A stretch of DNA of 22,801 bases, taken from a virus. Shown one piece after another: positions 3,653 to 18,841 of this stretch (positions are counted from its first letter, which is position 1; the number at the start of each line of letters is the position of its first letter). The position numbers and the translations under genes are program-made. The notes beneath the pieces are model-generated. The model saw only the letters and a list, made by a program, of their open reading frames with translations, was not told the origin of the DNA and searched no databases. The stretch lies in the IMG/VR virus record IMGVR_UViG_3300002231_000541, positions 92,141-114,941 of that record. The stretch is one strand, 5' to 3'.

Positions 3653-4533
3653 TGGCGAGCGATGATAACAAATGGTCTAAACCATCAAATCCTCCTCCTC
3701 CTTTATTTTTAGGAGAAAAAGAGCGTAATTTAGTCAAGCAAGTTAATGATGAGCTTCTCGAAAGAGTAATAGGCCAAGATATTCTCTATATGCCGATATC
3801 TATGGCACGCACTAATTTTCACCCCCTTTATGGCGAGAGTATCGAAAAGAGTTTTCTCCCACCGGTCCGCGTATATGCCCTGGTGGAATTTAGTGGTATA
3901 GACACAACCACGACTCACTATGGATTGGATAAGGAATCTTCCATTACCGTTCGCTTTCACAACAGGCGCTTATTTGAAGATCAGGACCTCTATGTCAGAG
4001 AAGGCGACTACGTGCGCTATGGAACATCATTTTATGAAATTGTCACCCTTAAAGAAAATAGACAACTTTTTGGCCAAATTGAGCACATTTTTCAAATCGA
4101 GGCCACATGTATTAAGACAAGGAAAGGACTTATCGATATCGACGTGCTTCCGACAGCTACCGCCAAAGCCATCGCAGCCGGCGTGAGCAGTACCGAAGCG
4201 GCAGAATTTTCCTCGGACGATTCCGAAGGATCAGGCGACGGAGGCGGCGAAGGCGGCGGAGGTGGAGGGAGTCTCACTGGAGATGTGGTACGCCTCGTCT
4301 ATACAGCCACAACACCATCTACCCAAGCTGCGGGAACTATGCTAAATACCCTATTGGCCGCCCCTGCACTCGAACTAGAGCCAACCGCCATTTGGGAGGA
4401 TGGGCTGCGAAAAACCCTAAGCACCACCTACCCCACGACGGGGGAGTTTTACTTGATCGGTGGAAAAATTTATAATAATTTTGAAATCTTGTCCGGAACC
4501 AAGCTGATCCTGGAGGTATTGACTATAGTATGA
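3652..4533 (+). CDS. gp14: Neck protein, T4 gp14-like, with Gly-rich linker and extra C-terminal domain
   Basis: A 293-residue predicted neck protein. Residues 1-165 follow the gp14 layout: GQDILYMPISMARTNF (the conserved strand near the N-terminus), YALVEFSGID, ESSITVRFHNRRLFED, REGDYVRYGTSFYEIVTLKE, and a final strand IFQIEATCI. After about residue 170 an Ala/Ser-rich segment runs into an acidic, then almost pure glycine linker (about 190-207). An extra domain of roughly 85 residues ends in FYLIGGKIYNNFEILSGTKLILEVL. T4 gp14 (256 residues) has no such linker. The tail domain has a beta-rich, capsid- or fibre-decoration look, but I cannot name it. The gene overlaps its upstream neighbour by one base and its downstream neighbour, the yeaH-like gene, by four (ATGA). 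Confidence 0.65.
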   Translation: MASDDNKWSKPSNPPPPLFLGEKERNLVKQVNDELLERVIGQDILYMPISMARTNFHPLYGESIEKSFLPPVRVYALVEFSGIDTTTTHYGLDKESSITVRFHNRRLFEDQDLYVREGDYVRYGTSFYEIVTLKENRQLFGQIEHIFQIEATCIKTRKGLIDIDVLPTATAKAIAAGVSSTEAAEFSSDDSEGSGDGGGEGGGGGGSLTGDVVRLVYTATTPSTQAAGTMLNTLLAAPALELEPTAIWEDGLRKTLSTTYPTTGEFYLIGGKIYNNFEILSGTKLILEVLTIV

Positions 4534-5739
4534 GTATTTTTCGAGAACACAAATCTTCTGCCGACCGTTCCGCTGCAGACCGTAAAAGACACAAAGCAAA
4601 GATTGACAAGGCTATCCGCGAGGGCATCAAAGACGTCATTGCAGATGAGTCCATTATTGGCCAAGATGGCAATAAAAAGGTCAAAATCCCAGTCAAAGGA
4701 ATAAAAGAATATCAGTTTGTTTATGGGGAAAATGATAAAAATCAAAAAGCTGGAGCCGCCGGCGATAAGCAGATTAAACGCGGCCAAGTTCTCCGAAAAA
4801 AGAAGGGGAAAGCTAAAGGGAAGCCCGAAAAGGCCAGCGATAAAGCTGGCGAAGAATATTATGAAGTCGAGGTAACTCTCGATGAACTGGCGGAGTATCT
4901 TTTTTCCGACCTAGAGCTTCCGGATCTTGAAAAAAAGAAGTTTAAATTTATCAAAGATAAAAAGCCCAAGCGTTCTGGATACCGCAAGAAGGGTCTGCGC
5001 TCCAAACTTTCTAAAAAAGAAACCATTAAGAGAAAAATACGTCGCAAAAAACGCGCCATTGCTGCAGGTACTTGGGACCCCGAAAATGGCGAAAGATTTC
5101 CTTTCCACGAAGACGACTTAAAATATAAACACATCAAACTGAAGAACGAAAATAACAACTCCGCAGCTATTCTTTTTCCTTATGGACGTCTCTGGCTCCA
5201 TGGGGAAGGAAAAAAAGTATTTGGCACGCAGCTTTTACTTTATTCTGTATCAATTCTTGCGCTATAAGTATGATAATGTAGAAGTAGTGTTCATCTCCCA
5301 CTCTACAGACGCCAAAGAAGTCTCGGAAGAGGATTTCTTCCAGCGCGCCACAATGGGCGGAACGGTTATATCTTCGGCCTTGGCACTAGAACAGGAAATT
5401 ATTCAGAAAAGATACCACCCTTCTTCCTGGAACATATACACTTTTTATTCGGGAGATGGCGAAAACTGGTCTTTTGATAATCCGAAGGCCGTGAGTATTT
5501 TTGAGAAACTAAAGCAATTAAGTCAGATGGTCTGTTACGCCGAAATCTCCCCCCAATCTTCGCTATCGGATCCATTCGCGGGCTCCTTTAACTTCGGAGG
5601 CAATAATCCTGGCCTCTCCGGAGATAATTTGTGGCATGCCCTTATCCCGCTGGTTGGGGAAGCTTTTAAACTAGTAAAAATTAACAAATCGAGCCAAATT
5701 TGGCCCGCATTTCAAGTAATGTTCGGAGGAAAGACATAA
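4530..5739 (+). CDS. yeaH: YeaH/YhbH family (DUF444) VWA-type protein (one +1 frameshift near 5173-5179)
   Basis: About 402 residues after removing one base. The first half is very basic and holds the DUF444 hallmark VTLDELAEYLFSDLELPDLE at about residues 114-133, followed by a KRSGYRKKGLRSKLSKKETIKRKI-type stretch. The second half is the VWA-like fold. A metal-binding DVSGSMG motif (DxSxS) begins near residue 219, followed by KKYLARSFYFILYQFLRYKY, VVFISHSTDAKEV, GGTVISSA (the MIDAS threonine loop) and WNIYTFYSGDGENWS. The two halves lie in different frames. Dropping one T or C from TTTTTCC at 5173-5179 gives AILFLMDVSGSMG, as the family requires. The ATG overlaps the gp14-like stop (ATGA), and the stop overlaps the spoVR start. 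In bacteria YeaH is the partner of PrkA/YeaG kinase. Its biochemical activity is unsettled. Confidence 0.92.
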
Positions 5740-7046
5740 TGAAAGACTGGACAGTAAAAGAGCTGCAAGAATGGGATGAAAAAATATGCAAAATAGCCAC
5801 TGAAAAATATGATCTTGATTGGTTCCCCATTGAATATGAAATTTTAGATTACAAAGAAATGCTCGGCGCCATGGCATACACCGGACTACCCACTCATTAT
5901 CGACATTGGTCGTTTGGGAAAACCTTTGAACGCACTGCAACTCGCTACAATCTAGGCATGGAAGGCTTGCCTTATGAGATGATCATTAACAGCAATCCAA
6001 GTATCGCATACTTGATGCTGGAGAATCCTATGAGCATTCATCTTCTTACTATGGCACATTGTGTAGGTCATTCCGACTTCTTTAAAAACAATCGTATGTT
6101 TAAGGACACGGACCCGACCAACATCTTGGGAAGATTCAAGGCAGCCGCAAAAAGAGTTCAGGGATACATCGAAGATCCAAGCATTGGCATCGAGAATGTA
6201 GAAAACATCTTAGATGCTTGCCACTCTATTCAATACCAGGTACCGCGAACCCCTGGAATCAAGCGCCCCGAAGGAAATATTTTTAAAGATCGGGTTCGAA
6301 GTAAATCTCTCCTTTGGGAAAAAGAGGACAATCTGTTTCTGGATGACAAAAAAGACTACAATTTATTAAAGTTTATTAGAAATCATGCCAGAAATTTAGA
6401 AGATTGGCAAAGAGACCTGATGGAGATGGTAGAGAGAAGAGCTTCCTACTTTATCCCTCAAGCTAAAACTAAAATTATGAATGAAGGCTGGGCTGTGACG
6501 ATTCATGAAAAAATCATGTTGGATTTAAATTTACCTGATAAATACCAATTGGCTTTTTACAAGTCGCACAATCAAGTTGTGCGCCCCGTCATTGGTCGCA
6601 TCAACCCTTATCACTTGGGGTATACCATCTTTAAGAAAATAGAAAGAGAGCACGGCTTTGAGGAGTGTAAGATCGCCCGCGAAGTACATGATGATGAATC
6701 ATTTATCCGAACTTATTTGGATGAAGAACTGTGTGCGGAACTTAACTTGTTTAGCTATTCTTACGAAAGAACACAGAAAAATTATGCTATAAATCACATT
6801 TCTGACAAAGAAGGGTGGAAAAGCGTTCGTGCCGCTCTAATTAACAATGTAGGACTTAAAAGTGTTCCGATAGTTTGTGTAACAGACTACGACAAAAGGA
6901 CTAATGCTTTGTATATCACCCATGAACATGATGGACGAGATTTAGATTTGAATTATGCCAATAAGGTCTATGATTACATTCGTTATTTGTGGGATGATGA
7001 CATATTTTTTACTTCTATAATAGAAGGTGAGGTTTGGGAATTTTAA
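5739..7046 (+). CDS. spoVR: SpoVR/YcgB family protein
   Basis: An intact 435-residue SpoVR-family protein, a little shorter than E. coli YcgB (510). Conserved blocks seen from the N-terminus: YEILDYKEMLGAMAYTGLP (about 33-51), HYRHWSFGKTFE (53-64), GLPYEMIINSNPSIAYLM (76-93), and LTMAHCVGHSDFFKNN (103-118), whose His and Asp residues are the family signature. The C-terminal GRDLDLNYANKVYDYIRYLW segment is also typical. ATG at 5739 was chosen because it has CGGAGGAAAG six bases upstream, overlaps the DUF444 stop by one base, and matches the family N-terminus; the frame extends to 5700 inside the upstream gene. SpoVR is needed for spore cortex formation in Bacillus. In non-sporulating bacteria it is co-regulated with YeaG and YeaH under starvation. 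Its molecular function is not established. Confidence 0.95.
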   Translation: MKDWTVKELQEWDEKICKIATEKYDLDWFPIEYEILDYKEMLGAMAYTGLPTHYRHWSFGKTFERTATRYNLGMEGLPYEMIINSNPSIAYLMLENPMSIHLLTMAHCVGHSDFFKNNRMFKDTDPTNILGRFKAAAKRVQGYIEDPSIGIENVENILDACHSIQYQVPRTPGIKRPEGNIFKDRVRSKSLLWEKEDNLFLDDKKDYNLLKFIRNHARNLEDWQRDLMEMVERRASYFIPQAKTKIMNEGWAVTIHEKIMLDLNLPDKYQLAFYKSHNQVVRPVIGRINPYHLGYTIFKKIEREHGFEECKIAREVHDDESFIRTYLDEELCAELNLFSYSYERTQKNYAINHISDKEGWKSVRAALINNVGLKSVPIVCVTDYDKRTNALYITHEHDGRDLDLNYANKVYDYIRYLWDDDIFFTSIIEGEVWEF

Positions 7047-7047
7047 A

Positions 7048-8991
7048 ATGACAAAAAAAACAAAAACTAATAAATTTTTAGAGATTGCGGAAAGCCATCG
7101 TTTGAATAAAAAGGCGGACAAATTTTCGGGTACTTTTGCCGAATATCTCCAACTTTTAGAGAAAGACAAAGGTCTTCCAATGTTGGCACATAAAAGATTG
7201 TACAACACGATTGTAGAGAAGGGTATAACACGCATGTCGGATGAAGACAGCCGCTGTAACAACTTGTTTAATGGCGAATCACTGCGAACTTATGATTACT
7301 TCCAGGACCGCTTTTTTGGTATGGAGCGAGCCCTAGCAAAAGTTATGCGCTACCTCCATTCTGCGGCCATGAAAGGTGAAGAGTCTCGTCAAGTGCTCCT
7401 CCTACTGGGCCCAGTTGGGGCAGGTAAGTCTGCTTTAGTAGAGCACATCAAGAGGGCCCTAGAGGCCTCTGGGCCGATTTACGCATTAAAGGGGTGTCCT
7501 ATTAACGAAGAACCAATCCACCTCGTTCCCAGGTCATTGAGAGACGAATTTTCCAAGATCTATGGAGTAAAAACAGAGGGCGATTTATGTCCTGTTTGCC
7601 GCCACCGTCTCTTAGAAGAATATGATGGTGATTATATGAATTTCCCCGTTGTTGAGACATCCTTTTCGATCCGAGGACGCCGAGGCATTGGCGTGGTTCC
7701 TCCGATGGATGCCAACACTCAAGACACCAGCATTCTGATTGGTACTGAAGATATTTCTAAGCTGGATTTGTATCCGGAAGATGACCCTCGTGTTCTTAGT
7801 TTAAATGGTGCATTCAACGTCGGCAATCGAGGTATTGTGGAATTTGTTGAGGTATTCAAAAACGAAATCGAGTTTCTGCACACGATGATTACAGCCACTC
7901 AAGAGAAGGCAGTCCCAAGCCCAGGCAAAGGCGCCATGATTTATTTTGATGGCGTTATTCTTGCCCATTGTAATGAGGCTGAATGGATCAAATTTAAATC
8001 AGAAAACACCAACGAGGCTATTCTGGACCGAATCGTGCGCGTCAACGTCCCTTATTGTTTGGAAGTTGGAGAAGAACAGAAGATTTACAATAAGCTTTTG
8101 AGCGAATCGGACTTTGATGCTCATATAGCTCCCCATACTTTAGAGGTAGCTGCCATGTTTGCAGTCCTTTCTCGCCTAAAAGAATCCAACAAAGTAGATC
8201 CTCTCACAAAAATGAAGATCTACAATGGAGACGAAATCGTCGAAAAGGGATATATCAAAAAGATTGATATCAACGATTTACGAGACGAAGCCCGTGATGA
8301 AGGCATGACCGGTATTTCTACCAGATTCATTATGAAGGCCATCGACGCTGCTTTGGCTGATTCTGACAGAAATATGGTAACTCCTATCTCTATTCGAGAG
8401 GCGCTCATTAAGCAAGTCAAGGAGCAAGTGATCGAAGACGCTAAGCGGGAAAAATACTTATCATTCTTGCAAAAAGATTTGCACGATGAGTATTTGAAAA
8501 TTCTCGAAACCGAGATTACAAAGGCATTTGTATCAGCCTACCAGGAACAAGCCGAATCGCTTTTCGACAATTATCTCGATCATGCCGAGGCGTATGTGAA
8601 CTCATCCAAGCTTAAAGATAATGTTACTAACGAAGAGATGATCGCCGACGAAGAGTTTATGTGCTCTATCGAAGAACAGATCGGCATCGTGGGATCGGCT
8701 AGGGAGAATTTCCGAGCTGATATTACTGCCTATATGTTTGCCAAGTTACGCCGCAAAGAGACTATCGATTGGTCATCTTACGGACCTCTCAAGGAAGCGA
8801 TTGAAAATAAGCTATTGACCTCCGTTAGAGATATTTCCCGTATCGTTACCAAATCCAAATCCCGCGATAAGAAGCAGCAACAAAAATATAGCGAGATGGT
8901 AAAGACTCTCATAGAAGAATACGGATATAATGAAGCTTCAGCTAACGAAATCATCAAATATGCTTCGAACAACTTGTGGCGAGATAGTTAA
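7048..8991 (+). CDS. prkA: PrkA/YeaG family serine protein kinase (AAA+ fold)
   Basis: An intact 647-residue protein, the full length of bacterial PrkA/YeaG. The N-terminal PrkA AAA-type domain has a Walker A loop GPVGAGKS at residues 121-128. It continues with the family blocks KGCPINEEPIHLVP (148-161), a CPVC pair (C181, C184), GVVPPMDANTQD, NRGIVEFVEVFKNEIEFLHTM, and DGVILAHCNEAEW-x-NTNEAILDRIVRVNVPYCL. The last third is the C-terminal domain historically described as cAMP-kinase-like. PrkA proteins phosphorylate proteins on serine; Lon-like protease activity has also been proposed for some members. ATG at 7048 fits the family start and lies 1 base after the spoVR stop. The gene closes the operon and is followed by a strong terminator. 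Nothing suggests loss of the ATP-binding site. Confidence 0.95.
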   Translation: MTKKTKTNKFLEIAESHRLNKKADKFSGTFAEYLQLLEKDKGLPMLAHKRLYNTIVEKGITRMSDEDSRCNNLFNGESLRTYDYFQDRFFGMERALAKVMRYLHSAAMKGEESRQVLLLLGPVGAGKSALVEHIKRALEASGPIYALKGCPINEEPIHLVPRSLRDEFSKIYGVKTEGDLCPVCRHRLLEEYDGDYMNFPVVETSFSIRGRRGIGVVPPMDANTQDTSILIGTEDISKLDLYPEDDPRVLSLNGAFNVGNRGIVEFVEVFKNEIEFLHTMITATQEKAVPSPGKGAMIYFDGVILAHCNEAEWIKFKSENTNEAILDRIVRVNVPYCLEVGEEQKIYNKLLSESDFDAHIAPHTLEVAAMFAVLSRLKESNKVDPLTKMKIYNGDEIVEKGYIKKIDINDLRDEARDEGMTGISTRFIMKAIDAALADSDRNMVTPISIREALIKQVKEQVIEDAKREKYLSFLQKDLHDEYLKILETEITKAFVSAYQEQAESLFDNYLDHAEAYVNSSKLKDNVTNEEMIADEEFMCSIEEQIGIVGSARENFRADITAYMFAKLRRKETIDWSSYGPLKEAIENKLLTSVRDISRIVTKSKSRDKKQQQKYSEMVKTLIEEYGYNEASANEIIKYASNNLWRDS

Positions 8992-9026: not shown

Positions 9027-9062
9027 AGCCTCGCATCTCATAGAAGCGAGGCTCTTTTTTTT
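9027..9062 (+). terminator. Rho-independent terminator after prkA
   Basis: A perfect 8-bp stem AGCCTCGC/GCGAGGCT (9027-9034 with 9046-9053), an 11-base loop, then C and eight Ts. It lies 36 bases after the prkA stop and marks the end of the neck-yeaH-spoVR-prkA transcript. Confidence 0.92.
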
Positions 9063-9085
9063 GCTTTATTTGATATCTTTTTTGC

Positions 9086-9151
9086 TTTTCGGGATAGGTG
9101 GGTATACCTATGGCGAACAGGTCTGTCTACAGACTCTGTTCATGTTTTTTT
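9086..9151 (+). promoter_or_regulatory. Conserved fibre-leader element, copy 1 (two hairpins plus T-run)
   Basis: This 66-base block aligns without gaps to 14250-14315. The shared core is CTATGGCGAACAGGTCTG, with a shared TTTCGGG at the 5' side and GTTTTTTT at the 3' side. Hairpin 1 pairs ATAGGT (9094-9099) with ACCTAT (9106-9111). Hairpin 2 pairs GAACAG-GTCTG (9115-9125) with CAGAC-CTGTTC (9130-9141), with loop TCTA and one bulged T at 9135. The T-run at 9145-9151 gives hairpin 2 a terminator- or attenuator-like shape. It could be an RNA processing, anti-termination or attenuation site; the function is unknown. It lies about 100 bases upstream of the fibre start. Confidence 0.6.
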
Positions 9152-9185
9152 GGAAAATTATGTTTTCTGAAAAGGCGCTTTTTTT
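9152..9185 (+). other. AT-rich hairpin pair in fibre-1 leader
   Basis: Two weak stem-loops follow the conserved element: GGAAAA/TTTTCT (9152-9157 with 9163-9168) and AAAAG-GCG-CTTTT (9170-9182), the latter running into a T-run to 9185. The second leader (14316-14363) has hairpins in the same relative place. They may be weak terminators or mRNA-stabilising structures. Confidence 0.35.
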
Positions 9186-9219
9186 CTATTATTTCTAGAA
9201 TAATTAAGGAGGAAAAAAT

Positions 9220-9264
9220 ATGAAATTAACAACTAACAAAGGGGGGATTAAATTATGGCTTTAA
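9220..9264 (+). CDS. Possible 14-residue leader peptide overlapping the fibre start
   Basis: ATG at 9220 has the strongest ribosome site in this leader (AAGGAGGAAAAA, 9206-9217). It opens a short frame, MKLTTNKGGIKLWL, that ends at TAA 9262-9264, ten bases into the fibre gene in another frame. The fibre ATG at 9255 has its own GGGGGG site at 9241-9246, inside this peptide. Translation of the short frame could couple to, or limit, fibre synthesis. It may also be chance. There is no homology evidence. Confidence 0.3.
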   Translation: MKLTTNKGGIKLWL

Positions 9265-12200
9265 TTTATCACGCAACACTTTCAGATCTACTGCCTACGG
9301 TGGGCGAGTTTGAACTTGTGGCCGGTAACGGCGCCGTTATAAATGTCGACCATTTAAGTCTCCCGAACTATAACAGTGGAGTATACCTGGAGACACCTCT
9401 TGTCTTGGGAAGCACGTACACCATCTCCATGTGGTTCAAAGATTTAAAAAACCGATCAGTCGCTGCCAGCGGCTGGATGCAGTTTGATGGCACGAGCGAA
9501 GGCGGAGGAACCAATGGAAACCACGCCGGCTTCGCAGCCAATTACACTGCTACCATCTACACCAACGATGAACTGGGTGCCTGGGATTCTGCATTCCGGA
9601 GTTCCGGATATGCCATGACCCAAGCAAACTTCACAGGCACTGGGTGGCATCACCTAGTGGCGTCATTTGATAATGGTACATTGACCTATTACATTGATGG
9701 TGCTCAAGTGGGAAGCCCTGTTGCGTATGCAGGAGGCTCCTCTATTGAGGTATTTGGATCCTGGTTGAATTACAGCTATGGCATAGCTGATTACATCGAT
9801 GATATTCAAGTATACGACAATGCTCTGTCTGCGGGTGATGTTTCGACATTATTTGCAGGTGGTAGAATGCAGTTGACTGACGGCCTCGTTGCAAAATATG
9901 CTCTGGATACTGATGGATCTGATTCTATTGGATCGAATGACGGAACAGCAACGGGGGTGACTTTTGAAAATGGGTATGCGTCTTTTTCTGCGGGTGATGA
10001 AATCACCACTGGACCAACAGCGTTTTTCGACTCAATGCCAGCAGGATCCACCAACAAGACGCTTTCGGCATGGGTTAAAATAGACTCCTACACTCCTGCT
10101 CAGTCTGCAAACGGTATGAACTCACCGGCTATTATCGCCAAAGGAGATCTGTCGAATGGAGCAATTTATTCTGTGATGGGCATCAACGACGGCTATCCTA
10201 GTTTTTACTGGTTTGATGGGTCGTCTGCTCGGGAGTTTAAATCAACCACCCGAATCAATCTTGGGGCCTGGGTCCACCTTTCACTTGTGATTGATGACTC
10301 GAACACCCTGACATACTATGTCAATGGAGTGGCAACTGGAGACAATGGTTTGGCGTTCAACGGTATGGCCTTCGCCAATGGAGGCAAATTCTCTATTGGA
10401 GCAGGGGTTACCCACTCAAACAGTCAGAGTATGCGTTTCGTGGGTGACATGGATGACCTTAGAGTTTGGTCGCGTGCTCTCGGAGCCTCGGAAATCGCAA
10501 CTCTACACGCAGCAGGAGCAGAACCATATGTTCCACCAGCTCTAACAGATGATCTTGTGGCAAAATATGCTCTGGATACTGATGCAACTGATTCTGTTGG
10601 CTCGAACGACGGAACCGCAACGGGGGTGACTTTTGATAGTGGATATGCGACCTTTGATGGTGCAAGTCACATCTCAATGGCACATGACGCAACATCCCAG
10701 CCCTTTCACGAAGAAAATTCGTCTGTTTCCATGTGGATTAAAACCTCTGCATCGGGTGAAGAAAGGCTCTTTTTTAAGGGATATGGTCCTTCATCGAATG
10801 AGTCGCTGTGGGATCACCGCGTAAAGGATGGCAAGGCTTATTTCTACTGGAGAGAAGAGACAGGGGCAACTTATGTTGATCTCACCTCAACTACTTCAGT
10901 AAATGATGGAAGTTGGCATCATGTGGTTATTTCTCGGAGCGGATCAGATATTTCAATGTATGTCGATGGGTCTCTTGAGGACACCACAACAGGTGCTATC
11001 GGAACATGGAGTTCCACCTATGAGGTGCATCTTGGCAAATGGGATCACCCTAGTTATGCTGCATCTCATCAATTCACAGGCGACATGGATGACCTTAGAG
11101 TTTGGTCTCGTGCTCTCGGAGCATCTGAAGTCACAGCTCTACATGCAGCAGGAGCAGAAGCAGCAGCTGCTGCACCCCCTGCGGGAAACACAGTGGATGT
11201 GACTTTCTTAATGCAAGACTCTTACGGCGATGGTTGGAATGGATCTACTTTCCAAATTTATGATGCAGACAGCAACATTGTTGAATCTCATACTTTGGCA
11301 GGCGGATATTCCCAGACTGTACAGTTTGATCTTGATGCAGAGCCTTATACTTGGGCTTTTGTGAATCAAAATTGGATGAGCGAAATCACGGCTACACTGA
11401 CAAGAGATGACACCTCCGAACAATTACTATTCAGTTCGGCTGGCAGTGTTCTAAGCGGCGCCTTCGACTTATCCCCGGCAACACCGGATATTTCGCCTAC
11501 TTTGTCGGCAAGCAACGGGGACATCACTGTTTCTGCTACTGTAAACGCCGAAGCAACTGCAGCAGGTGCAATCGGCTGGGCTTATTCACTCTCTCCCCTG
11601 GGAGCAGAGGGGCAGCCACATGGGGGAACATTGCTTGCCCTCGGTGTCGACGGCACAGTCAGTCCAACTCCGCATGGAGTACATACTGTCTATGTAGCAG
11701 CGGTAGACGCATCTGGCAATGTTATCGTATCTAATTCGTCTAGCATTGATAATACGCCATCTATTTCTATCACGATCGTAAAGGCTGACTCTTATAACGA
11801 CTCGTGGGACGGGTCTAGTCTGGTAATTACCAATTCTGGCGGAGTTGAAGTGTATAATGCCACTTTAGCCCACGGCGCCTCCCCGCAAACTATCACCGCT
11901 GATTTGCCATATGGCACTTACGATTGGGCGATGGTTGGTGGAAGCTACCATAATGAGCATACAGTGACAATTACTTTGACTTCTGATGGATCGCAACTTG
12001 CACATAGTGCAGGTCACTCTCCTTCAAGTGGGTCGTTTACTGTAGGCCCACCCGCAGCAGCTATTAGTGCCACTGTCTCCGTATCTGGTGCAGACATCAC
12101 TGTTACCGGAGTAGCCAACGCCACTGCCGTCTCGGAAGGAGCCGCCCTTTGGTCAGCTTCTTTGACGGAATACGGTGAAGTAGGCGCGCCGCTTGATGGT

Positions 12201-14104
12201 GCAAAAATGGTAACTGCTCTTGGAGTTGACGCCCGTAGTAACCGCTCCCAGGAGGCGGCATGCAAAACTGTGTATGTGGCAGTCGTGGATGCATCCGGCC
12301 TGATTATCGCCAAGTCAAGTGTAGACGCAAGTGTTTTCATTTTCGCAGCTAGAAGTTGGAGACCAGATGATTCTTATGACTTATCTTTCTCATCCATCTT
12401 TGTCGCCGGCAGGAACGCACGCTCAATTGACCAATGATGAAGGTGATCTCAAATGGGGTCCATTCTATGTAGGTGATTTGACAATCAAAATCTATCACTC
12501 CAGTCTCTTCTGACGAATTCGAGATCCTACAATCCATCACTTTTGATGATGGTTCTGGCGGAACCTTGAATCTTAACGAGTTGACTAAGGAGCTTATCAA
12601 GAAATATAACCTCAACATGTTGTTCGGCGATAATTCTAATGATGGTCTCTTTTTCCAATCTGTGATTGATGGTACTGCTCCTATTGATGGCGCAGGACAA
12701 TTATTGACATGGGATGGTTCTGATTCCCTCACCGTGATGCTTGAAGCACAAGGCGGCGGATGGGTCGCAAATTATGACACCATGGTGGATCCTTACGGAA
12801 ACGAAGTTTCTGAATTTCCACCGGGATCAGAAAGTGCATATGGCCCAGACGGTTCATCTTTCGTTGGTACGATCGCCCCAGGTGAAGTAGCTCCGGCTCA
12901 AGTAGTTGGTGCCCCAGCTAAGATTAGAATCAAGTTTGGTGGTGCTATCTATACTTCCTCTGTAGTGATCAAAGACGGAAATGGCGACTGGCTTGCTGCC
13001 TTTGCAGGCGAAGCTATGGCATATGGTAACAACTATTATCATGCAGATGCTCTAGCAGCTCGCGATGATGGGAAATTCATCCACATTGGCGATTCCAATG
13101 CATATAATAGCGATGGCAATGGCACTCCGAAAGGTTCTGCGATTGGCATCATGACTGCGTTGGATGGTGGCAACTCTTATGAAATTTCTGGCTATACATT
13201 TGAGTATGACATGGCATTCCCAGAAGGGGATTATACTATTCATGCTTACGCTGGCTATGATCAAAGCGCCCTACCTACATCTGTTTATATCTTAGATGCG
13301 GATGATAATTTGGTAGCACAGGTTGTCAGTGATGGAAGTGGCTTCGATAATACTTATTATCCAGTTACAATTGGTACTCCGGCACCAGCAGCTTATGAGT
13401 GGACTCATGGCGGCCAGTTGGTTAGTGTCAAGCACTTCGAAATTGGCGAAAGTATTGGGGGAGCTTCGGCTTACGGATATACCAAGAAAGAGCCAGGAGA
13501 GGGTACAACAACGGTGTACTTCGCTTCGGATTTTCAAACTTGGTCCACCTTTACTCAATATACAGCCCTTCAAAGCGGAATCGAAGGTGCCCCAATGTGT
13601 CTCACACATGGTGCGTCAAACCTTTGGCTCCTCGGAACAGATAGCGGAAAGGTGTATGAAATCGCACTTCTTGATGCTGATGCATCTTCGGCTACTTTCA
13701 CTGAAATTTGGTCTTCCCCAGTAGGGGAGGCAATTAATGCTGTGAAGTTTGATTCCGGCACAAGCCGCTGGATCTTTGAGAGCGCAGACGCCCTCTATAC
13801 CATAGATCAAGGTGGCGCTAATGTACAGAGTCAAATTGCACTTGCAGCAGGAGAAAAGGTCGTTGATATCCAAAGTGGCGAAGGATATATTGTATATGTG
13901 GTTCGCAAGGCGGATTTTAGTTTCGAACTTTTTGTTTGCGACTCCGCGTGGGGCAATGTGAAGGATTCTTCTTCCATGCAGCCAATCTTGGCAAGCCATG
14001 AAGCGATTGATGTCAACTATGACGCTCTTGCAGACTTGTGGACAGCTTCAAGCGCAGATGGCCAAGTCATCACAACTGATGATTTGGGTAACTGGCTGAT
14101 TTAA
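9255..14104 (+). CDS. Large LamG-domain tail fibre / adhesin-like protein (two +1 frameshifts)
   Basis: About 1615 residues once two single-base insertions are removed (TTTT at 12334-12337, AAAA at 12487-12490); the total length then divides exactly by three. Residues 1-205, 206-425 and 430-640 are three LamG/concanavalin-like beta-sandwich domains. They show recurring SxWxK, GxWHHLV and LTYYVDG motifs and end in DMDDLRVWSRALGASE. Two beta-rich modules with DSYGDGWNG (about 654) and DSYNDSWDG (about 844) follow, each trailed by an HTVYVAAVDASG-type repeat. The C-terminal third, from LNLNELTKELIKKYNLN onward, is rich in strands and ends in propeller-like WLLGTDSGKVYEI and WIFESADALYTI repeats. 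LamG domains bind glycans, so host surface recognition is the likely role. No signal peptide is visible. It could equally be a head- or baseplate-attached appendage. Confidence 0.75.
9891..11160 (+). repeat. Tandem LamG domain duplication visible in DNA
   Basis: Bases 9891-9980 match 10560-10649 (same 90-base length, starting GCAAAATATGCTCTGGATAC). Bases 10445-10523 match 11082-11160 (79 bases, GACATGGATGACC onward). The domain cores between them have diverged much more. This indicates duplication followed by divergence or exchange of the middle, binding part while the domain edges stayed conserved. Confidence 0.85.
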
Positions 14105-14151
14105 AACTTGAGTGCACCATCACTCTAAAATGGTAGTAGAAATACGAAAAT

Positions 14152-14257
14152 CCCGAAAGGAGGAAAATAAAAACTAAGATTTTAAATTAAGTGCTGAAGC
14201 TCTTTGAGATATTCTCATTTTTTTTGACATTAGTTACACAATTTTCTTCCTTTCGGG
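14152..14257 (+). repeat. 16-bp inverted repeat with 74-base loop
   Basis: CCCGAAAGGAGGAAAA (14152-14167) pairs with TTTTCTTCCTTTCGGG (14242-14257) over 16 positions, with a single G-T pair. The left arm contains a perfect Shine-Dalgarno AAGGAGG without a following start. The right arm supplies the CTTTCGGG that begins the conserved fibre-leader element. In RNA this would be a stable long stem, possibly an RNase III site or a switch competing with the element. Confidence 0.75.
14205..14225 (+). terminator. Weak terminator after fibre gene 1
   Basis: A TGAGA-TAT-TCTCA stem (5 bp, 14205-14217) is followed by eight Ts (14218-14225). It is short and AT-rich, so efficiency is doubtful, but it is the best terminator candidate downstream of the first fibre gene. 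Confidence 0.45.
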
Positions 14258-14315
14258 TACTCATAGAATATCTATGGCGAACAGGTCTGCCCGCAGATCG
14301 CGTTCACGTTTTTTT
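14250..14315 (+). promoter_or_regulatory. Conserved fibre-leader element, copy 2
   Basis: Gapless 66-base match to 9086-9151 with an identical core, CTATGGCGAACAGGTCTG. Hairpin 1 is changed in sequence but kept as a stem (CATAG 14262-14266 with CTATG 14272-14276). Hairpin 2 keeps GAAC/GTTC and GTCTG/CAGAT (one G-U pair), with loop CCCG and a less paired middle. The T7 run lies at 14309-14315. It sits about 150 bases upstream of the second fibre gene. Confidence 0.6.
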
Positions 14316-14363
14316 AAAAAACTTCGGTTTTTTTTAAGAACAAAAATCCTTTTTTCGGAAAGG
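14316..14363 (+). other. Two TTCG-loop hairpins in fibre-2 leader
   Basis: AAAAAAC-TTCG-GTTTTTT (14316-14333, then two more Ts) and CCTTTT-TTCG-GAAAGG (14348-14363). UUCG loops, especially the C(UUCG)G form in the first, are unusually stable and common in terminators and mRNA-protecting hairpins. Confidence 0.55.
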
Positions 14364-14427: not shown

Positions 14428-17400
14428 ATGGCTACTTACACTTTTGTAAACCCAAATGTCGATGCATACGAAGTATACTACGACATGTCACCAGTCGGTG
14501 GTGGAAACCAATTAGTGGCTTCTATCCCGGGGTTCTGGTGGATCCATCAACCTCGATGCAGCGACTGTCGCGGCAATTGGCGCAGATATCTCGGTGCTCG
14601 TGGGAGATGGGCGTTGTGTCATTCACAATGGTTCCAACTGGAATTGATCCAACTCTTGGAGCACCATTGCTTTTGACAAGCTTGGTTGATGGACAATCAT
14701 ACCAAATCGAAGCGGACTTCGGTTCACTTTTGGACGGCACCCCAGGTGCTTCTTTCGGCGCCGCAGCACCAGCTGCTATCGTCCCAACCCGTGTACGCGG
14801 TGGAAAACAGATCAATATGGGCTTCGCTCATGCTAGTGGTGCAACCTACGCAACCCTAGAGGAAGCTGCAGCCGCAGGTCACGACGGAGTTGGCGCTCTT
14901 ATATCTGACATGTTCGATATGGCATCAATGAAGGTTGACGCTTCTGTTGCTGACATTGACGCATATGGTGTTGGTGACGCAATGGTCAACTTAGAATATG
15001 TTGCTACCAAAAGAGCTGACGACGCAGCTGCTCGCGATGCTGCGGATGCTTCACTCGCTACATCTATTGCTGATGAGGAAGCTCGCGCCCTCGCTGCAGA
15101 AGTTGCACTTCAAGCTGACATCGATCAGAATGAAGCTGACGCTGACGCTGCAATCGCTGCCCTTCAAGCAGACGTTGATCAAAACGAAGCTGATTCCGAC
15201 GCTGCGGAACTATCATTGGCCACTCGCCTTGAAAACGAAGAAAATCGTGCATCTGATGCCGAAGCTTCTATCGTTGTAAAGTATGATGCCGAAATGGCCG
15301 CTCTTCAAGCTGATGTTGATCAGAATGAAGCTGACTCGGACGCTGCAGAACTCTCTCTCACTACTCGCATGGGTGTGGAAGAAGCACGCGCAGCTGCAGC
15401 AGAAGCTGCAATCCAGGCAGACGTTGATGCTAATGAAGTTTCAATGATTAATGCGGATGCATCTTTGACCACCCGTTTGGCGGCTGAAGAGGCTCGCGCT
15501 GCTGCTGCTGAATCCGCTGAAGAAGCTGCTCGCATTGCTGCAGACGCTTCTATCGTTGTAAAATACGATGCTGATATCGCAGCCCTTCAGGCTGATGTTG
15601 ATCAGAATGAGGTCGATTCAGACGCTGCAGAGCTTTCTTTGACCAACCGTTTGGCTGCAGAAGAAGGTGCACGCGCTACTGCTGATGCTTCTATTGTCAC
15701 CAAGCTTGACGCTGACATGGCAAACGAAGCACTTACTCGCGAAACCGCAGATATTTCACTGTCGACTCGCCTTGGTCTAGAAGAAGCAAGAATGGATGCA
15801 GTTCTACTTGCATCTGATGCTGATAAAGACTCATTTGCGGAGATTGTCAGTTTAATTAATGCTGTGGATCTTGAAAATGACAACGCTCTAGCTAGTGCTG
15901 TTCTAAGTCTTAGCAATTCAGTCACTGATGAAGAAACAGCTCGTATTGCTGGTGACGCATCTTTGACAACTCGTCTCGCTGCCGAAGAAGCCCGCGCTGC
16001 TGCTGCAGAAGCTGGAATCCAAGCAGATGTTGACGCTAACGAAGTTGCAATGGACGCTGCTGACGCTTCCCTCACAACTCGTCTCGCTGCCGAAGAAGCT
16101 CGTGCTGCCGCTGCTGAAGCTGCAATCCAAGCTGACGTCGACGCGAACGAAGCTGCAATGGACGCTGCTGATGCATCTATCGTCACCAAGTTTGACGCTG
16201 ATATCGCAACCCTTCAAGCTGATGTTGACCAGAACGAAGCAGACTCTGACGCTGCAGAACTTTCTTTAAGCACCCGTATGGGCGTTGAGGAAGGTGCTCG
16301 CGCTACTGCTGACGCTTCTATCGTCACCAAGTTTGATGCTGACATCGCAGCCCTTCAGGCTGATGTTGATCAGAATGAATCAGACGCAGACGCTGCAATC
16401 GCCGCTCTTCAAGCTGACGTCGATCAAAATGAAGCAGACTCTGACGCTGCAGAACTTTCTTTAAGCACTCGCATGGGTGTTGAGGAAGGTGCTCGTGCTG
16501 ATGCTGATGCTTCTCTCGTTGTCAAGTACGATGCTGAAATTGCTGCTCTTCAAGCTGATGTTGATCAGAATGAGGCTGACTCCGATGCCGCAGAACTTTC
16601 TTTGACTACCCGTTTGGCCGCCGAAGAAGTTGCTCGTGCTGCTGACGTCGACGCCGAAGAAGCTCGCGCTCTTGCAGCTGAAGCTGCAATCCAAGCTGAC
16701 GTTGACGCTAACGAAGTTGCAATGGACGCTGCTGACGCATCTTTGACCACTCGTGTCTCTGATGAGGAGAGTGCACGCGCTGTTGCTGATTCTTCCTTGA
16801 CAACTCGTCTTGGTGCAGAAGAAGTTGCTCGCGCAGCTGCTGATGCTTCTATCGTTACTATGTACGACGCGTCAATTTCTGCACTTCAAGCAGATGTTGA
16901 TCAAAATGAAGCTGACGCTGACGCTGCAATTTCTGCAGAAGAAGCCAGTCGCATTGCTGCTGATGCATCTTTGACAACTCGCCTTGCTGCTGAAGAGACT
17001 GCACGCTCCGCTGCTATCTCTGCACTTCAGGCTGATGTTGACCAAAACGAAGTTGATTCCGACGCTGCAGAGCTTTCGCTCTCAACTCGCATCGGAGATG
17101 AAGAGACTCGCGCTGCTGCTGCTGAAGCTGCCCTTCAAGCTGACATTGATCAGAATGAATCAGACGCAGACGCTGCCGACGCATCTTTGACAACTCGTAT
17201 TGCTGCTGAAGAATCCGCTCGCGCTGCTGCTGTCTCTGCTGAAGAGTTAGCTCGCATCACTGCGGACGCTTCCTTGCAGACTCGTTTGGCTGCTGAAGAA
17301 GCAAGAATGGACGCTGTTCTTTTGAGTGCTGACGCCGATAAAGACTCTTTCGCAGAGGTTGTGTCCTTAATTAATGCTGTGGATCTTGAGAATGACAATG

Positions 17401-18263
17401 CTCTCGCAACTGCGATCACCAACCTTCAGTCTGACATTGATCAGAATGAGGCTGACTCTGACGCTGCTGAATTGTCATTGCAAGTTCGTCTTGCTGCAGA
17501 AGAAAGCCGCGCTGCTGCTGCTGAAGCCGCAATCCAAGCTGACGTTGACGCTAACGAAGTGGCAATGGACGCTGCTGACGCTTCCTTGACTACCCGTTTG
17601 GGTGTTGAAGAGGCTCGCGCTGCCGCTGCCGAAGCTGCAATTCAGGCTGACGTTGATGCCAATGAAGCTGCAATGGACGCTGCTGACCTTTCCTTGACCA
17701 CTCGCTTGAGTGTTGAAGAAGGCGCGCGCGCTGATGCAGATGCATCTCTTGTCGTCAAGTACGATGCAGAGATCGCAGCCCTTCAGGCTGACGTTGACGC
17801 TAACGAAGCTGACTCCGATGCTGCAGAACTTTCTTTGACCACTCGCTTGGGTGTTGAAGAGGCTCGCGCTGCTGCTGCTGAAGCTGCAGAAGAAGCTCGC
17901 GCAATCGCTGCAGAAGCTGCAATTCAGGCTGACGTTGATCAGAATGAAGCAGACGCTGACGCAATGTTCGCTCTTCACTCTGCTGATATCGCTGCCCTTT
18001 ATGGCCGTGATGTACAGGTAGTAGACGTTCTAGCTCTGGACCTCCCAGCAGGTACCGCTGTTGACTTGTCTGCAACCGCCGGCTTCCCGCTTTCTAGCAT
18101 GACATTCGTCTCGATCAATGGTCTCATTATGCAGCCAGGTCTTGATTACGACTATATCAGCGACGTTGATGGAAACATCACCGGCTACATTCTTAATGTA
18201 GGTATTTATACTGGCGATGCAGTTGTTGTTAAAGGTCAGTCCGCAATTAGCCTTCAATCGTAA
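14428..18263 (+). CDS. Long coiled-coil fibre protein (two +1 frameshifts near the N-terminus)
   Basis: About 1277 residues after removing two bases (one G of GGGG at 14529-14532, one G within 14602-14611). The repaired N-terminus reads through SIPGSGGSINLDAATVAAIGADISV and then VGDGVVSFTMVPTGIDPTLG, which is smooth sequence in three successive frames. Residues 1-200 are a globular N-terminal part. About 200-1185 is an extremely Ala/Asp/Glu-rich repetitive coil built from units such as AIQADVDANEVAMDAADAS and SLTTRLAAEEARAAAAE. The last 80 residues form a beta-like cap (LPAGTAVDLSATAGFPL, FVSINGLIMQPGLDYDY). It is likely a trimeric fibre or whisker comparable in role to T4 fibritin or long tail fibres, but no specific homologue is claimed. 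The start ATG 14428 has GGAG at 14414-14417. A strong terminator follows. Confidence 0.75.
15040..17975 (+). repeat. Coding repeat array of the coiled-coil fibre
   Basis: Roughly 2.9 kb of imperfect repeats. A common unit is 36 residues (108 bases), for example AEAAIQADVDANE through TTRLAAEEARAAA, mixed with shorter modules (ALQADVDQNEADSDAAEL, DASIVVKYDAEI). A distinct non-repeat module DKDSFAEIVSLINAVDLENDNALA occurs twice, at about 15780-15897 and 17295-17410, dividing the array. Unit order varies, suggesting repeated unequal exchange. Confidence 0.85.
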
Positions 18264-18303
18264 GACTTTTTAAAAAAGATACATAATTTAATATTATTTA
18301 TCT

Positions 18304-18336
18304 GGCCCTCTCACTTTTTGTGGGAGGGCCTTTTTT
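18304..18336 (+). terminator. Rho-independent terminator after coiled-coil fibre gene
   Basis: An 11-bp stem GGCCCTCTCAC (18304-18314) with GTGGGAGGGCC (18320-18330), one T-G pair, a TTTTT loop and a six-T tail. The core closely matches the capsid terminator at 1430. Confidence 0.93.
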
Positions 18337-18341
18337 ATGAA

Positions 18342-18349
18342 ACTACTTA
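18342..18349 (+). promoter_or_regulatory. Candidate late promoter motif ACTACTTA
   Basis: One-base variant of the ACTATTTA motif at 1469, again immediately after a terminator of the same family. It lies 28 bases before the start of the small unknown gene. Confidence 0.4.
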
Positions 18350-18376
18350 AGTTTGTTGAAAGCATAGGAGGCTACA

Positions 18377-18766
18377 ATGTTTGACAAAATAAAAAAATGG
18401 TTAACCCCGGAACCACCCCCGGAACCAGAACAGGAGTTGCCATTGGAGCCAGAAGCGGAACCAGAACCCGAGCCTCCTCCGCCTCCACCCGATGTAATCG
18501 AAGTACCTTGGAAGTTTGCTGCAGCCCCAAAAAACTTTCAAGATGCAATTAACAAAATACACGCAGAATTGAAAGAGTTCTTATACGAGTCCAAACTAAA
18601 AGAGGTTAATGCACTTAAGACTGTGGATAAGTTTGTAGAACTCCAAGAGAAGAAGGTAGAGCAGCTAAAAGAGGCCTATGGCATCCCTAGCGATATGGAG
18701 TATGACTTTATATTGCCGGAGGGCACTGGCCGCCCCGGCTACTTGAAAAAGAAAGAAAGCAAATAA
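18377..18766 (+). CDS. Small unknown protein: Pro/Glu-rich N-terminus, helical C-terminus
   Basis: Not recognised. It has 129 residues and starts at an ATG preceded by a strong AGGAGG (18366-18371). Residues 11-40 are almost entirely proline and glutamate (repeats of PEPE and PPPPPP), an extended flexible acidic arm. Residues 50-105 form a predicted charged helix or coiled coil (INKIHAELKEFLYESKLKEVNALKTVDKFVELQEKK), ending in YGIPSDMEYDFILPEGTG. It sits directly upstream of the sheath gene, where T4 has the terminase genes 16 and 17, so a small-terminase or tail-assembly role is conceivable but unsupported by motifs. Clear start and stop signals and its position between two candidate promoters make it a real gene. 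Confidence 0.8.
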   Translation: MFDKIKKWLTPEPPPEPEQELPLEPEAEPEPEPPPPPPDVIEVPWKFAAAPKNFQDAINKIHAELKEFLYESKLKEVNALKTVDKFVELQEKKVEQLKEAYGIPSDMEYDFILPEGTGRPGYLKKKESK

Positions 18767-18792
18767 ATATTCCGACTTTGGAAAAAGACGAA

Positions 18793-18800
18793 ACTATTTA
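18793..18800 (+). promoter_or_regulatory. Candidate late promoter motif ACTATTTA before sheath gene
   Basis: Identical octamer to 1469, 42 bases upstream of the sheath ATG. An AT-rich stem TTATTA/TAATAA (18798-18803 with 18811-18816) overlaps it. Inferred from motif recurrence. Confidence 0.45.
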
Positions 18801-18841
18801 TTATGTGAAATAATAATCTAGATTTGAAGGAGAATCTTTAG

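Follow-up and report, generated by a model that had tools for sequence, protein, structure and literature searches.

A conserved promoter-like site with tandem RNA hairpins precedes the fibre genes of uncultured, contractile-tailed phages

The DNA analyzed here (the window, 22,801 nucleotides) covers bases 92,141–114,941 of a 119,951-base virus record (IMG/VR IMGVR_UViG_3300002231_000541, here G000). It carries two large fibre genes, the first encoding a LamG-domain protein and the second a repetitive protein whose frame is broken close to the start. Genes for SpoVR and PrkA lie upstream of the fibre genes, and a small gene followed by the tail sheath and tube genes lies downstream. The SpoVR and PrkA (serine kinase) genes (window 5700–8991) thereby stand within the structural region of these phages, which are uncultured and contractile-tailed; the usual home of such genes is in bacterial sporulation or stress loci, and Thermus phages also carry PrkA genes. 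Both fibre genes look split (12437–12566 and 14428–14676), and the reading frames at 4530–5267 and 5182–5739 match consecutive parts of one PHROG; these three frame breaks (4530–5739, 12437–12566, and 14428–14676) are probably assembly or read errors. Downstream of prkA we identified an intrinsic terminator, the core of which folds at −11.4 kcal/mol (z −2.9), and nearly all relatives bearing the element described below have a terminator-like hairpin at the same place. Judged by its sequence, this terminator should isolate the fibre operon from upstream transcription. As the region in question follows the terminator and precedes the first fibre gene, the fibre operon would need a start of its own. 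The features of the locus are as follows.

9027–9061, + strand: prkA intrinsic terminator, GCCTCGC..GCGAGGC followed by T8, recognized from sequence
9077–9089, + strand: copy 1, T-rich, −35-like box TTTTTTGCTTTT ending in CTTTT, assigned by spacing and per-position conservation
9090–9104, + strand: copy 1, unconserved 15-nt spacer without pairing support, holding most of the proposed "hairpin 1"
9105–9110, + strand: copy 1, −10-like hexamer TACCTA (consensus TANNTA)
9115–9141, + strand: copy 1, hairpin H2, GAACAGGTCTG-TCTA-CAGACTCTGTTC
9144–9176, + strand: copy 1, hairpin H3, with the T7 run (9145–9151) as its 5' arm
9220–9264, + strand: leader ORF MKLTTNKGGIKLWL, 14 codons, with its own Shine-Dalgarno sequence, overlapping the fibre start codon
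9255–12437, + strand: first fibre gene, LamG-domain protein
14250–14254, + strand: copy 2, degenerate box TTCCTTTC, spacer of 14–15
14269–14274, + strand: copy 2, −10-like hexamer TATCTA
14279–14305, + strand: copy 2, hairpin H2, GAACAGGTCTG-CCCG-CAGATCGCGTTC
14308–14341, + strand: copy 2, hairpin H3
14428–18263, + strand: second fibre gene, ATG at 14428, frame breaks near 14540–14670, then an ORF at 14538–18263

A preliminary description of the window had reported a 66-base noncoding element that occurs twice, at 9086–9151 and 14250–14315, and aligns without gaps. This is correct: by our count, the two copies are identical at 47 of 66 positions, share an exact 18-base core and are both closed by a T7 run. 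The core occurs exactly twice in the whole source record, and none of 100 shuffles gave two matches even at three mismatches. The copies were said to lie 100–150 bases before fibre genes, in agreement with the measured distances of 103 and 113 bases to the start codons at 9255 and 14428. We consider the repeat real and, from its sequence, under strong selection. Two features had gone unnoticed: the T7 run belongs to a third conserved hairpin (H3), of which it forms the 5' arm, and a CTTTT box stands 15 bases before TANNTA. From 5' to 3', the order is therefore prkA terminator, T-rich box ending in CTTTT, 15 unconserved bases, TANNTA, H2, H3, and a linker.

Among IMG/VR contigs outside the source record, the exact core was found only in the window's near-twin. 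Relatives were collected by a PrkA search, which gave first 18 and later 72 loci. Wherever PrkA shared at least 82% identity with the protein of the window (coverage permitting) and fibre-like genes followed directly, a related element was present, located just after the prkA terminator. At one locus (L055) prkA is directly followed by the sheath gene, and the element is missing; at more distant prkA loci, other genes occupy the site, and the covariance model R1 found no copy in 27 such contigs (E ≤ 0.001). R1 detected two copies in the source record, plus a single one per contig in 11 others, one of which is 167,580 bases long. Its matches always fell into the interval from prkA to the first fibre gene; at E ≤ 0.001 the most divergent forms escape it (G003, G009, and G013). 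The earlier statement that one copy precedes each giant fibre gene consequently holds for this genome, whereas relatives have a single copy at the prkA/fibre border. A looser core pattern gave 111 matches in 84,980 bacterial and archaeal genomes (chance estimate about 180), its extra viral matches did not score with the covariance model, and the named phages searched gave nothing above chance. In line with the earlier remark that no named RNA family has this core, the window had no match among 4227 Rfam families at curated thresholds, and 13 element loci had only weak, chance-level Rfam matches. We found no paper on the element or on the ACTATTTAT motif discussed below. A lack of further copies in related phages, or of conserved pairing, had been named as grounds for abandoning the element; it survived this comparison. 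Its constant position in more than 20 relatives, the compensatory changes, and the extreme conservation beside saturated synonymous sites support a structured RNA that is conserved and associated with fibre genes.

On the basis of folding and covariation, we regard H2 and H3 as real RNA structures, with mean folding z-scores of −2.6 and −2.1, respectively. In a model alignment of 19 sequences, which is fitted to the structure, 13 of 21 pairs in H2 and H3 were double-changed, corresponding to 35 double-changed cells versus 11.2 ± 2.5 when shuffled and at most 13 when slid. A MAFFT alignment of 14 sequences revealed 16 double-changed cells versus 5.3 ± 1.8. Alignment-free, single-sequence folds further showed that stems are swapped wholesale with pairing kept in L043 (ATACAC/GTGTAT), L047, L048 (CTTGGT/ACCAAG), L054 (GTGCAT/ATGCAT), and L059 (GTGTGCC/GGCATAC). 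Two successive hairpins had been proposed within the 66 bases, of which the second stands, as it folds in both copies and shows compensatory changes in relatives. The first, described as paired in both copies, was rejected: the folds of the window copies use different registers (9094–9100/9105–9111 versus 14262–14267/14271–14276), pairing over 14 relatives was at the shuffled level in both (41.8% versus 42.4% shuffled, and 45.1% versus 42.9% in the other register), the mean folding z was −0.28, and the sequence falls into the unconserved spacer between CTTTT and TANNTA. An alternative hairpin between the A-run of H3 and a later U-run is present in the window, L039, L040, and L045 and missing in L043, L052, and L105, and was for this reason not built on.

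The preliminary description had listed an attenuator among the possible functions, i.e., H2 followed by T7 would halt transcription unless relieved. A run of T6–T7 does follow the hairpin in most copies, but the T-run columns pair with conserved A-run columns, and the distance from stem to T-run varies between 3 and 6 nt (3 in most, 6 in L048). In L105, the run reads TTTCTTT and its H3 partner contains GAAA, so that pairing is kept and the U-run is broken, and L064 and L066 have no U-run after H2. A simple terminator scan lists none at this position, but the same scan missed the prkA terminator. Owing to the variable distance, the broken run in L105, and the pairing with the A-run, a terminator tail is disfavoured on the sequence pattern, and we regard attenuation as improbable.

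Downstream of H3, the window's leader ORF may be translationally coupled to the fibre gene, the start of which it overlaps. Leader ORFs of 11–17 codons running into the fibre start were found in 14 loci; they begin MK[LI].., are Asn/Lys-rich, have their own ribosome-binding site, and precede several unrelated fibre types. They were seen in the window and in L039, L040, L041, L042, L044, L045, L048, L050, L051, L056, L057, and L058; none was found before copy 2 or in L043, L047, L052, L053, L059, and L105. Furthermore, a conserved block, ACCTAACGGTAGGCAATT, with a small hairpin lies about 100 bases after H3 and before the leader ORF, and occurs in a subset of relatives, namely L005, L006, L008, L009, L010, L013, and L014.

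The hairpins differ from their surroundings in how they evolve. Among 11 core sequences, the PrkA protein was 90% identical, and prkA 4-fold sites (36%) and the spacer (about 37–39%) were near random, whereas the 38-base H2 region was 83% identical. H2 is therefore conserved in sequence and structure within the core group; outside this group it is replaced as a whole. A nearly fixed H2 next to saturated neutral sites, in an element confined to the fibre operon, would suit an operator bound by an RNA-binding protein of phage or host origin, through which the translation or decay of fibre mRNA would be repressed or timed. The hairpins, however, lie 70–150 nt or more from the ribosome-binding sites, and we found no candidate protein, which makes an operator unlikely.

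The box and hexamer point to a promoter. The gap from CTTTT to TANNTA was exactly 15 bases in 20 of 21 leaders, compared to a mean of 0.21 and a maximum of 3 in shuffled leaders, the pattern having been noticed first and then counted on the same loci. Hexamer variants were TATCTA, TACCTA, TAACTA, TACATA, and TATGTA. A fixed spacing around a free spacer marks a bipartite DNA–protein site, and for this reason we read the two parts as a putative bipartite promoter. In L046, L056, and L058, the box, the 15-nt spacing, and TACATA are kept although the hairpin there is unrelated (type B leaders: L046, 12049 region, or L011, 12040–12144; L056, 7046; L058, 7049), which suggests that promoter and hairpin are separable modules. 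TANNTA is a poor −10 element for sigma70, and a canonical sigma70 promoter (TTGACA/TATAAT) was looked for at the element and not found. Elsewhere in the genome, a near-perfect one (TTGACA-17-TATAAT) lies at G000 25440–25500; canonical host promoters thus exist there.

T4 middle promoters combine a MotA box, WWWTGCTTtA, in the −30 region with a good TATAAT at 12 ± 1 bp (PMC2988021). The box TTTTGCTTTT resembles this sequence and is also in the −30 region; by contrast, the G of TGCTT is unconserved, and the spacing of 15 bp and the hexamer TANNTA instead of a strong TATAAT set the site apart from the T4 middle promoter. MotA (PF09114) had no match in six contigs, where controls likewise went undetected and which may be incomplete, and a sigma region-4 domain was not found in the contigs, with the same reservation about completeness.

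The clade has another candidate promoter motif, ACTATTTAT. Across nine contigs it matches 70 times, and within each contig every match falls on the same strand (70:0), whereas control patterns had mixed strands. In the window record it lies on the coding strand, in many cases 10–35 bases before a Shine-Dalgarno sequence and often just after terminators (for example G000 90326, 90795, 110933, and 115576, and the window region 18185–18801). It is probably the late promoter of the clade, as its distribution suggests, and it is unlike the T4 late promoter TATAAATA. ACTATTTAT is absent from the prkA–fibre gap of the window and from the relatives' leaders alike, i.e., from all 25 element leaders.

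A promoter-like site in AT-rich DNA near a fibre gene also recalls T4 ori(34), which pairs a promoter with readily melting DNA ahead of a fibre gene. As a replication origin, however, the element would leave the compensatory changes unexplained, and in the 167,580-base relative it coincides with no shift in GC skew; we consider this very improbable. The PeSL cassettes of T4-type phages combine an early promoter with a stem-loop and occur in many copies per genome (secondary source: PMC4503421). The present element resembles them as an intergenic unit of promoter and stem-loop beside variable genes, and it could likewise be a mobile cassette that offers a homology site for fibre-module swaps, with regulation being secondary. 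In all relatives, it delimits the variable fibre region on the left, and the second copy of the window precedes an unrelated fibre and has an H3 resembling that of L048. On the other hand, the compensatory changes reflect selection on RNA structure rather than DNA identity, and other genomes have a single copy. PeSLs moreover have early sigma70 promoters, unlike the site described here, the hairpin of which lies downstream of the promoter and inside the transcript; with one or two copies per genome, the element falls outside the PeSL cassettes. A mobile cassette is accordingly a rather unlikely explanation.

We propose that the element is, somewhat more probably than not, a phage promoter dedicated to the fibre operon and joined to a structured 5' leader. 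The CTTTT box and TANNTA, 15 bases apart, would be recognized by RNA polymerase together with a specificity factor of phage or host origin, a step that we consider quite likely. With TANNTA as the −10 element, the transcript would start about seven bases later (6–8 bases past TANNTA, about 9115–9119 in copy 1) at the base of H2, which is reasonably probable, and the 5' end of the fibre mRNA would consist of H2 and H3 in tandem. An action of the hairpins at the RNA level, whether the transcript is nascent or complete, also has a good likelihood. Their most likely effect, proposed tentatively, would be to sequester the start of the long fibre mRNA and so shield it from 5'-end-dependent decay; in addition, they may contact RNA polymerase or a phage protein in a sequence-specific manner. 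5'-terminal stem-loops stabilize ompA and papA mRNA in E. coli against such decay (references in PMC3997798). The predicted hairpin at the extreme 5' end of a long-lived mRNA is similar, but here there are two tandem hairpins and a fixed phage promoter, and sequence is conserved as well. Since pure 5' protection needs no nearly fixed H2 sequence in the core group, a sequence-specific partner besides 5' protection is likely; the fixed core-group H2 fits such a partner, and its complete exchange in other relatives agrees with a structural role.

In phage HK022, put antitermination depends on binding of the zinc-binding domain of the beta' subunit. HK022 putL, about 70 nt long, forms two stem-loops just downstream of a promoter, and the contacts of put to polymerase depend on specific unpaired bases (PMC9378689). 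The element is built similarly, with two tandem stem-loops (about 62 nt, supported by covariation and folding) at the predicted start, just after a putative promoter and ahead of 5–9 kb of fibre genes, and its core group is under strong sequence constraint. These features suit the put-like antiterminator of the preliminary description, in which nascent H2 and H3 would stay on RNA polymerase and let it resist pausing and termination over the long fibre genes. However, R1 found nothing in HK022 20000–40000, nor was there sequence similarity in the HK022 regions searched, and HK022 put belongs to a temperate lambdoid phage, in which it is found on an early promoter. Moreover, stems and loops are exchanged freely in several relatives of the window, and other late operons have no such element. 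We therefore rate this reading as somewhat unlikely, albeit ahead of an operator.

Taken together, the sequences argue strongly for conserved promoter-like DNA and RNA structure, and only hint at how the RNA acts. Its function would have precedents in promoters, in 5' stem-loops, and perhaps in put, but the element is a member of no family tested. It is conceivable, if doubtful, that it exemplifies a new class of cis-regulatory RNAs in phages: leaders with tandem hairpins, tied to their own promoter and acting on RNA polymerase or a phage protein; such a class would give the fibre operon its own timing and processivity, apart from all other late genes. The work adds a well-supported RNA structure that Rfam lacks. 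Host range is set by the fibre genes, and no other part of these phages changes faster; the short region ahead of them is nevertheless conserved, although prkA synonymous sites are saturated. If confirmed, the fibre genes of these phages would have a private promoter and structured leader, and the covariance model could serve to recognize fibre operons of this clade in metagenomes.
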